Of a DNA stretch of 64,000 bases, positions 21,043 to 64,000 are shown piece after piece. The DNA lies in assembly GCA_000341795.1 (NCBI GenBank), contig AODO01000014.1, positions 124,001-188,000 on the forward strand. The letters are read 5' to 3'. The notes below the pieces were generated by a model. That model was not told the origin of the DNA. It saw only the letters and a list, made by a program, of their open reading frames with translations, and did no database searches. Position numbers and translations under genes: made by a program. Position 1 is the first letter of the stretch; each line of letters starts with the position of its first letter. Source of the DNA: Rhodococcus triatomae BKS 15-14. Lineage in GTDB: Bacteria > Actinomycetota > Actinomycetes > Mycobacteriales > Mycobacteriaceae.

Positions 21043-24000
21043 GTGGACGAGTGGACGACGAACGAGGGAAACCCGACGGGGGAGGGTGCGGGGGTTCCCT
21101 CAGGAGCGTTCCCCCTCTCGGCCGCCCAGTTCGGACTCTGGCTCTCTCAGCAGCTCAATCCCGATGTGCCGGTCAACATGGCGCAGTACGTCGAGCTTCG
21201 TGGTGACATCGACCTCGACCTGCTCGAGCGCGCCGGCATCGTCGTCGGCAAGGAACTCGGATCCGGTTACCTCCGCATCCTCGACGTCGACGGACGTCCC
21301 TACCAGACCATCGACCGCAGCATCGACCAGTCCCTGCTGCGCGTCGACTTCTCCGAGCATCCCGATCCCGTCGCTGCTGCGCACGAATGGATGCGCGCCG
21401 AGTACACGGCGCCGCTCGATCTGCTGTCCTCGCCGCTGATCCTGTGCGCGATGCTCAAGCTCGCCCCGGGTCACCACTTCTGGTACGCCCGCTGCCATCA
21501 CGTCGCGCTCGACGGGCTCGGTGCGATCACCCTCATGACCCGCACGGCCGAGCTCTACACGGCCGCGCTGGCGGGCGAGGAGCTCCCGGAGCCCCGCAGC
21601 GATGCGCTGTTCGAGCTCTACCAGGCGGAGGAGAAGTACCGCGGCACCAAACGCTTCACCGACGACCGCGACTACTGGCACGAGATCGCGAAGGGCCTGC
21701 CTGAACCGGTGAGCTTCGCGTCCCGGCAGGCACCCCCGCAGGCCCTGAGCCGGGTCGCCAGCTCGCCCCTCTCCCCGGACACCGTCGCCCGGATGAGCGA
21801 GACCGGGCCGTCCTTCGCGCCCGCGACGATCGCCGCGTTCGCCGCCTACTTCGGCCGGATGACGGGCACCGAGGACGTGCTGCTGTCGCTTCCGGTGTCC
21901 GCGCGCACCACGGCGGCGATGCGCCGCGCAGGCGGCATGGTCTCGAACGTGGTGCCGCTGCGCGTGACCGTGCGGGACGACACCCCGATCCGGGACCTGA
22001 TCGAGTCGGTTCAGGTCCAGATCGTCGGCGCCCTGCGCCATCAGCGCTACCGTGCCGAGGACATCCGCCGCGACCTCGGCGTCCACGGCGCCGAACGCTC
22101 CTACTTCGGTCCCGTCGTCAACATCATGATGGGACTCGGCGACCTGCGTCTCGGCGACATCGAGTCGCACCTGCACGTGCTCTCGTCCGGCCCGGTCGAC
22201 GACCTGATGCTGAACCTGTACGAGACCGGAACCGGATCCACCCACGTCGACTTCATCGGCAACCCCGCCCGGTACACGGACGAGGAGGTCGAACGGCACC
22301 ACGAGCGGTTCTTCGACTTCCTCGCCCGATTCGTCGCGGCCGACCCGAGCACTCCGGTCTCGGTCCTCGACTACGTCGGCGAGGCCGAGGTCGTGTGGCT
22401 GTCGGATCGGCGTGGCGAGGAGGCCACCGCACCGACCGTGCTCGGCGAGATCCTCGGCGACACCGCGAGCAGGCACCCCGATCGGGTGGCGGTCACCTTC
22501 GAGGGGACCGACTGGACGTATCGCGAACTCGACGAGCGGGCGAACCGGCTCGCCCGGGTGCTCATCTCGCGGGGTGTCGGACCGGAGACCTTCGTCGCGC
22601 TGGCCGCACCCCGCTCGCTGGAGTCGGTGCTCGCGGTGTGGGCGATCGCGAAGGCGGGCGGCGCCTATCTGCCGATCGACCCCAACTACCCGATCGACCG
22701 CATCACCCACATGGTCGCGGACTCGCAGGTGCACGCGGGCGTCACCCTCGAGGCACACCGCGCCGGGCTCCCCGAATCGGTCGACTGGCTCGTGCTGGAC
22801 TCGGCCGAGGTCGCCGACCTGTGCGCAGCGGAGCCGGCGGAAGCGATCTCCGACGCCGACCGCATCGCCCCGGTCCGGGCGGGCAACCCGGCGTACGTCA
22901 TCTACACCTCCGGATCGACCGGCAGGCCGAAGGGTGTGGTCGTGCCGCACCTGGGCCTGTCGACGCTCGCAGCAGACCTGCGCGTCACCTACGCGGTGAC
23001 CCCGGGTGCCCGCGTCGCGCAGTTCGCCTCACCGAGCTTCGACGCCGCGTTCGGCGAGATGCTCGCCGCGTTCGCCCACGGCGCCACCCTCGTCGTCGCG
23101 CCTCCGTCCGTGCTCGGCGGCGACGACCTCGCCCAGCTCATCGCGCGCGAGCAGATCACCACGCTCGTGTCGACGCCGCCCGCCGCCCAGACCCTCGACC
23201 CGGCCGGTCTCGACTCGATCGTGCGGGTCGTCACCGGCGGCGACGTGCTTCCCGCGGAGCTCGCGGCGCGCTGGGACGGGCGCTTGCGCAACGCGTACGG
23301 ACCGACCGAGACCACCGTCATCGTCACGATCACCGAGCCGCTGACACCGGAGCTGCCGGTCACGATCGGCGCCCCGATGCGGGGCGTGCACGCGCTCGTC
23401 CTCGACGCCCGGCTGCGGCCGGCCCCGATCGGCATCGCCGGTGAGCTCTACATCGCGAACCCGGGCCTGGCCCGCGGCTACCACGGCCGGCCGGGTCTCA
23501 GCGCGGAGCGCTTCGTCGCCAACCCCTTCGGCGCCCCCGGTGAGCGGATGTACCGCACCGGCGACGTCGTGCGCTGGACGGCGGGAGGCGAACTCGACTA
23601 CGTCGGTCGCGCCGACTTCCAGGTCAAGGTCCGCGGGTTCCGCATCGAGCTCGGCGAGATCGACGACGTCGTGAGCGCGCACCCCGCCGTGGACTTCGTG
23701 TCCACCCAGGTGCGAACGGGCGCGGCCGGGCAGAGTCGCCTGGTCGCGTACGTCCTGCCCGCCGACGGGCAGACCGTCGACGCCGCCGACCTGCTCGCAT
23801 TCGCGGGACGATCCCTGCCCGAGTACATGGTGCCCGCCGTCGTCGTGGTCCTCGACGAGATCCCGCTGACGGTCAACGGCAAGCTCGACCGGGCCGCGCT
23901 CCCCGATCCGCAGCAGGCCGCTCCGACCGCGGGACACCGCGATCCGGCCACCGCGCTGGAGCACCGCATCGCCACCGTGTTCGCGCAGGTCCTCGGGCTC

Positions 24001-64000: not shown

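Follow-up and report, generated by a model that had tools for sequence, protein, structure and literature searches.

The window analysed here, 64,000 nt of the Rhodococcus triatomae BKS 15-14 draft genome (C14:124001-188000; 5.82 Mb in 73 contigs), carries a giant gene that very probably encodes a complete and functional type I NRPS, which as one single polypeptide would make a 12-residue lipopeptide for export. Judged from its sequence, this gene is intact and under selection, and its product is most likely an N-acyl dodecapeptide with D residues at positions 1, 7 and 11. The location of the gene, its modules and its neighbours is given in Table 1.

Table 1. Features of the window and its surroundings (positions relative to the window unless preceded by the contig name; A-domain codes and motifs in brackets)
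Feature	Position	Strand	Remarks
Upstream NRPS	C14:92897-122350	+	9,817 residues; nine C-A-T modules, starter-class C, TE; same strand as giant gene
Two WS/DGAT-type acyltransferase genes	3133-4512 and 4598-5992	+	
Regulator, 408 aa	6027-7253	-	two TetR_N stretches
FadD5-type fatty-acid-CoA ligase	9642-11153	+	NCBIfam FadD5, 807 bits (cut-off 733)
mce operon	11443-20381	+	two YrbE/MlaE-type permeases, six Mce proteins, one 186-aa protein
Giant NRPS gene	21043-64000 in window; stop at 64650 (C14:188650)	+	14,535 codons, 43,608 bp
Module 1	21109-25608	+	starter-class C, A (DAGVVGAVI), T (GGDSI), E1 at 24217-25608
Module 2	25711-28761	+	C (post-E class), A (DALFVGGIM), T
Module 3	28843-31977	+	C, A (DVWHRGGVT), T
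Module 4	32056-35226	+	C, A (DVWQIILLA), T
Module 5	35302-38394	+	C (HHISGDA), A (DAGVVGAVI, code identical to module 1), T
Module 6	38467-41547	+	C, A (DAFCAALVW), T
Module 7	41623-46197	+	C, A (DVWHFSLVD, Ser), T (GGDSI), E2 at 44809-46197
Module 8	46288-49563	+	C (post-E class), A (DFWNIGMVH, Thr), T
Module 9	49639-52842	+	C, A (DVWEVGTIT), T
Module 10	52918-56022	+	C, A (DAIFGGMIA), T
Module 11	56101-60672	+	C, A (DLKNFGSDV), T (GGDSI), E3 at 59302-60672
Module 12	60763-63816	+	C (post-E class), A (DALFSGAIW), T (GGHSL)
Type I TE	63853-64000 in window, continuing to 64647 beyond	+	
Antisense open frames	23029-41571 and 44968-63726	-	6,180 and 6,252 codons

The gene starts with a GTG codon that has a Shine-Dalgarno-like AGGAGG a short way ahead of it, both here and in two orthologues (see below). 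Frame +0 has no stop codon from position 20881 through the end of the window, and the end of the gene was read from the contig DNA past it, where the stop lies 650 bp beyond. The unbroken frame of more than 14,300 codons noted in a preliminary description of the window is thus real and reaches 14,535 codons once this additional DNA is included. The two long antisense frames opposite the gene were not accepted as genes; at 71% G+C, codon bias most likely accounts for them.

The domain order is C-A-T-E-[C-A-T]x6-E-[C-A-T]x4-E-C-A-T-TE, which corresponds to 12 C, 12 A, 12 T, 3 E and 1 TE domains. It was obtained with domain models built from the protein itself, matches under 15 bits being discarded, and an independent Pfam search placed the same 15 C/E domains in the same positions, one of them as two pieces. 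All domains of the preliminary count were recovered, and the TE, of which only the beginning lies in the window, proved complete (GWSFG motif; Pfam Thioesterase, 1.2e-21). The GGxS carrier motif occurs in 12 out of 12 T domains and the HHxxxDG motif is exact in 14 of the 15 C/E domains. The exception, HHISGDA in C5, counts against a functional line; it still retains both His and the Asp, in agreement with the earlier statement that no key Ser or His is lost. The same Ala is found in C5 of one orthologue (Rhodococcus sp. RD6.2), and R. spelaei has the normal Gly. Repeated C-A-T modules with their catalytic motifs and a termination domain, which characterise type I modular NRPSs, are both present.

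Full-length orthologues sharing the same 40-domain string were found in Rhodococcus sp. RD6.2 (G004) and R. spelaei C9-5 (G005), with 86% (12468/14492 aligned residues) and 68% (9753/14366) identity, respectively, to the window gene. Because both display a full-length frame, the frame is considered free of the stop or frameshift that the preliminary description had named as a possible refutation. When compared to RD6.2, dN/dS values range from 0.13 to 0.22 in all 12 modules. That the gene is silent or decayed and kept by chance, or that it is an assembly artefact, is hardly credible: the genome is a draft of 73 contigs and the C5 motif has changed, yet one intact frame with an identical domain order occurs in three assemblies, and every module is under purifying selection.

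The C and E domains were classified by means of a tree built from 54 such domains, which were drawn from four proteins (the three orthologues and the upstream NRPS), a comparison internal to these proteins in that it includes no reference C domain of known stereochemical class. Four clades were obtained, corresponding to 9 post-E C domains (support 0.999), 32 post-T C domains (0.80), 4 first C domains (1.0) and 9 E domains (1.0). All nine post-E C domains of the three orthologues thus group apart from the 32 post-T ones, as is expected of a D-accepting class, and the carriers preceding an E domain read GGDSI in all three proteins. Both results bear out the previously noted agreement, at all three positions, between the E domains and the class of the following C domain, a pattern which suggests that residues 1, 7 and 11 are most likely in the D configuration.

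The first C domain clusters with that of the upstream NRPS, apart from every other C domain in the tree, all four first C domains forming their own clade. Its best matches among solved structures are 7c1k, the N-terminal C domain of ObiF1, CDA synthetase I and EntF, and C2 matches other C domains than these. We take the 7c1k and CDA chains to be starter C domains. The giant gene thereby displays the hallmark of C-starter lipopeptide synthetases, namely a first module that opens with a starter-class C, which points to a product that is most likely N-acylated at the start of the chain. The preliminary prediction of a 12-residue core with D residues at 1, 7 and 11 holds for the number of modules and the position of the E domains; its bare 12-mer most likely does not, the starter class of C1 having been overlooked. 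A peptide devoid of a fatty acyl group, with C1 either inactive or condensing an acid other than a fatty acid, has in its favour the presence of EntF, which accepts an aryl acid, among the structural matches, as well as MxcG and EntF as the top NCBIfam matches of the C1 stretch, both far below their whole-protein cut-offs. Such a product is nevertheless improbable, since C1 retains HHVALDG, no aryl-acid ligase was recognised among the neighbouring genes scanned and a C-starter domain is reported to open most rhodococcal NRPSs (PMC5550956).

On this basis, the starter C1 of the proposed lipopeptide synthetase would place a fatty acyl group on residue 1 and eleven further C-A-T modules would lengthen the chain to 12 residues, with the E domains converting residues 1, 7 and 11 to D and with Ser and Thr as the predicted residues 7 and 8. 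The TE would then release the chain, either as an acid or as a ring formed through a hydroxyl such as that of Thr8, Ser7 or a 3-hydroxy acyl chain. The DrrABC-like exporter, transcribed convergently, would most likely carry the product to the cell envelope.

For substrate prediction, the nine code positions of each A domain were taken from the alignment and compared with a hand-entered signature table. The module 8 code equals a Thr signature in 8/8 variable positions, and that of module 7 agrees with two Ser signatures, in 8/8 positions with one and in 6 with the other. These are the only two clear codes of the 12 and they support Ser7 and Thr8 as initially proposed; the remaining 10 reach at most 5 variable positions, which counts against the main reading. 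Codes identical to those of the window gene occur in 10 of the 12 modules of RD6.2 and in 7 of the 12 modules of R. spelaei. In the latter, the C7-A7-E2-C8 block is without a close counterpart at the same place, the best R. spelaei matches being C11 for C7 (62%), A4 for A7 (58%), E2 for E2 (49%) and C12 for C8 (55%), and the module 7 code is not that of Ser. Owing to this mismatch and to the differences in codes, the peptide most likely differs between the species. Module 7 and its E domain (window positions 41623-46197) have apparently been swapped, together with the C domain that follows, between the window/RD6.2 pair and R. spelaei.

No C domain was found downstream of the giant gene on the rest of the contig, so that the line is not continued by further NRPS genes there; a continuation of this kind had been named in the preliminary description as contrary to a complete line. 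Upstream, the nine-module NRPS has behind it an MbtH gene, which lies 22 kb ahead of the giant gene, and a ten-module NRPS occupies its place in R. spelaei. Both genes lie on one strand and the gap between them is comparable in the two genomes (22.7 kb in the window genome, ca. 20.5 kb in R. spelaei), as might be expected if they worked in series as one 21-module line. This is very improbable, however, because the upstream protein carries a starter-class C and a terminal TE of its own, for which reason its feeding the giant NRPS was rejected, and because the giant gene restarts with a starter-class C. The two NRPSs look like separate lines.

The region between the two NRPS genes contains the nearest acyl ligase, which ends 9.9 kb before the start of the giant gene. 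FadD5 belongs with mce operons, of which it forms part of the usual set, and it is found here in that context, so that the FadD5 type of this ligase counts against the lipopeptide reading. The 186-aa protein of the operon has no family match above cut-off. An mce operon lies beside the NRPS in three species with a one-gene NRPS and in three sister species with a two-gene NRPS, with FadD5 seen in 5 of the 6, the R. maanshanensis stretch ending before the place of FadD5. Homologues (50-53%) of the regulator with two TetR_N stretches adjoin drrA in Nocardia loci, mostly with an NRPS TE beside them.

The mce operon, FadD5 and the acyltransferases might be part of the pathway, FadD5 giving the acyl chain and the Mce proteins moving the lipopeptide through the envelope. 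The recurrence of the operon next to the NRPS in the six Rhodococcus species argues for such a role, as does NRPS-5 of R. erythropolis, noted together with a fatty acid CoA ligase and an mce operon in the excerpted text of PMC5550956. Such a role nonetheless appears rather unlikely: mce genes also occur next to drrABC without an NRPS in five loci of the R. opacus/jostii group, a 91% YrbE homologue in genome G014 sits on a different contig from the S10-linked NRPS, and the WS/DGAT genes are not at the same place in R. spelaei. The association of FadD5 with mce genes, being usual, likewise speaks against it.

A glycolipopeptide locus was also considered. Loci of the GPL- or gordonin-like type have conserved glycosyltransferases in the cluster; three GT2 genes are located downstream of the giant gene in the window genome, and this reading was rejected because the stretches of RD6.2 and R. 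spelaei that are orthologous contain nothing corresponding to them.

Downstream, the giant gene is followed by three DrrABC-like exporter genes in convergent orientation, other genes and the S10 ribosomal operon. The ATPase passes the NCBIfam drrA cut-off (377.5 vs 312.45 bits), whereas both permeases fall below that of the DrrB family (132.4 and 111.3 vs 146.9 bits). Being on the opposite strand, these genes do not form one operon with the giant gene, which, like the permease scores, weighs against the main reading. Drr-type genes adjoin the giant NRPS in both orthologues as well.

The conservation of this address was surveyed with six DrrB query proteins, the best 80 of 159 relatives being taken as loci, mostly from Rhodococcus (in the wide sense) and Nocardia. 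Among these best 80 loci, drrA was present in 80, drrC in 79, rpsJ in 74, NRPS domains in 67 and both rpsJ and NRPS domains in 64. AMP-binding matches were not counted as NRPS evidence because FadD ligases match this family too. Of the 67 positive loci, 48 have C or E domains (two of these, L110 and L112, lack both C and T); in a further 18 the evidence is confined to T and TE, and in the last one to TE. NRPS domains were not found in 13 of the best 80 loci, which also weighs against the main reading. Of these 80, 19 are shorter than 20 kb. Among the other 61, all of 20 kb or more, NRPS domains occur in 52 and are lacking in nine (L037, L038, L040, L041, L042, L043, L066, L103 and L107). In L037, L040, L041, L042 and L107, all from the R. 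opacus/jostii group, drrABC directly adjoins mce-yrbE genes and no NRPS occurs in the flank. By way of comparison, the probability that a random stretch of 20.7 kb of the window genome touches an NRPS is 6.3% at most. A binomial value, which counts related species as if they were independent, was left out of consideration. In the three one-gene and three sister species, the NRPS is framed by the mce operon on one side and by drrABC-S10 on the other.

The occupants of this place vary. In R. maanshanensis (G001:C5:139001-219000, L119-L122), one first-half NRPS gene is accompanied by two tandem second-half genes that are 70.6% alike (6174/8744), one of these copies being 89.8% like that of R. oryzae (7910/8808), and one loader may thus serve two finishing lines. 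The S10-linked NRPSs as a single orthologous family were rejected, as their TE domains form no single clade in a tree that is a weak control (61 TEs, only 3 of which are from outside the S10 set, and six of the S10 rows duplicating genomes that it already contains; 51 of the 87 scanned loci yielded a TE). The upstream NRPS of R. spelaei has a TE that clusters in this tree with those of S10-linked NRPSs from Rhodococcoides fascians and two relatives (L069, L073 and L077). The literature searched does not name the S10 address, which is weak evidence of absence, address wording having barely been used as a query.

We tentatively propose that the S10-adjacent stretch with its DrrABC-like exporter could be an old, fixed lipopeptide-NRPS address in Rhodococcus and Nocardia, where the exporter stays while assembly lines are replaced, duplicated or lost, split up or fused, or have individual blocks altered. 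If this is true, the clade-specific NRPS families of the literature would in part be successive occupants of one locus, and the address would yield an envelope lipopeptide that varies, not an antibiotic particular to one strain. A fixed chromosomal address holding different NRPS versions is less ordinary than the size of the gene.

The preliminary view that single-polypeptide NRPSs of this size are rare is not supported. At least 16 of 41 genomes (that of the window included) contain an open frame of at least 9,000 codons matching the first 516 residues of the gene, 15,769 codons in one case, and the excerpted text of PMC3751702 describes, for Nocardia cyriacigeorgica GUH-2, one NRPS gene of 43,689 bp with twelve modules. 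Giant NRPS genes are usual in this bacterial family. Domain matches below 25 bits were discarded in the scans of relatives' NRPS loci, among them that of a G006 frame which exceeds the window gene, with 15,769 codons, 14 C, 14 A, 13 T and 3 E domains (G006:C19:963617-1010924, L132-L134). NRPSs of ca. 11,400 codons occur in three other genera of the family (G015, L021 and L140-L142; G022, L123-L124; G010, L128-L131) with a nearly identical order, the models placing E domains behind modules 1, 8 and 9. Genes resembling drr lie at most 4 kb from the NRPS in G015 and G022 and ca. 22 kb from it in G010, and WS/DGAT, glycosyltransferase and MbtH genes are found nearby in G015. Finally, G014 has three adjacent NRPS frames over 43.9 kb (G014:C1:422867-466747, L125-L127) with an A domain on both sides of one border, which could be one giant gene with frame errors or real splits.

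With one polypeptide, one start, one release domain and two full-length orthologues, the giant gene is a clean target, so that one deletion could tie the product to the gene. The series found at one address, which runs from a single gene of 12 modules through gene pairs sharing 9 modules and a locus with its second half in tandem to loci where no NRPS was found, further offers a natural test of NRPS splitting, fusing and module exchange, and of whether a conserved exporter tolerates a changing cargo. The question of greater interest is why one address and one exporter host changing assembly lines.

Among known systems, kolossin synthetase resembles the giant NRPS, by description only, as a very large single-protein NRPS; it is larger, with 15 modules, and comes from an unrelated bacterium. 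Humimycin-type NRPSs have seven modules, and this type was rejected for the giant gene with its 12. NRPS-5 of R. erythropolis (Ceniceros et al. 2017) is similar in lying beside a fatty-acid-CoA ligase and an mce operon and differs in being described, in the excerpted text, as of humimycin-type architecture (PMC5550956). Closer in size is NOCYR_4800 of N. cyriacigeorgica GUH-2, also one twelve-module gene, in a related genus and of 43,689 vs 43,608 bp, the likeness resting on its description in the excerpted source (PMC3751702). The two-gene S10-linked NRPSs of R. tukisamuensis (G002), R. oryzae (G003) and R. maanshanensis (G001) occupy the same place between mce and drrABC-S10, and there too the first gene opens with a first-position C and the last ends in a TE, the best domain matches of the giant NRPS being ca. 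41-64% alike in R. tukisamuensis and R. oryzae; they differ by having 9 modules, two proteins split between C and A, and 4 E domains.
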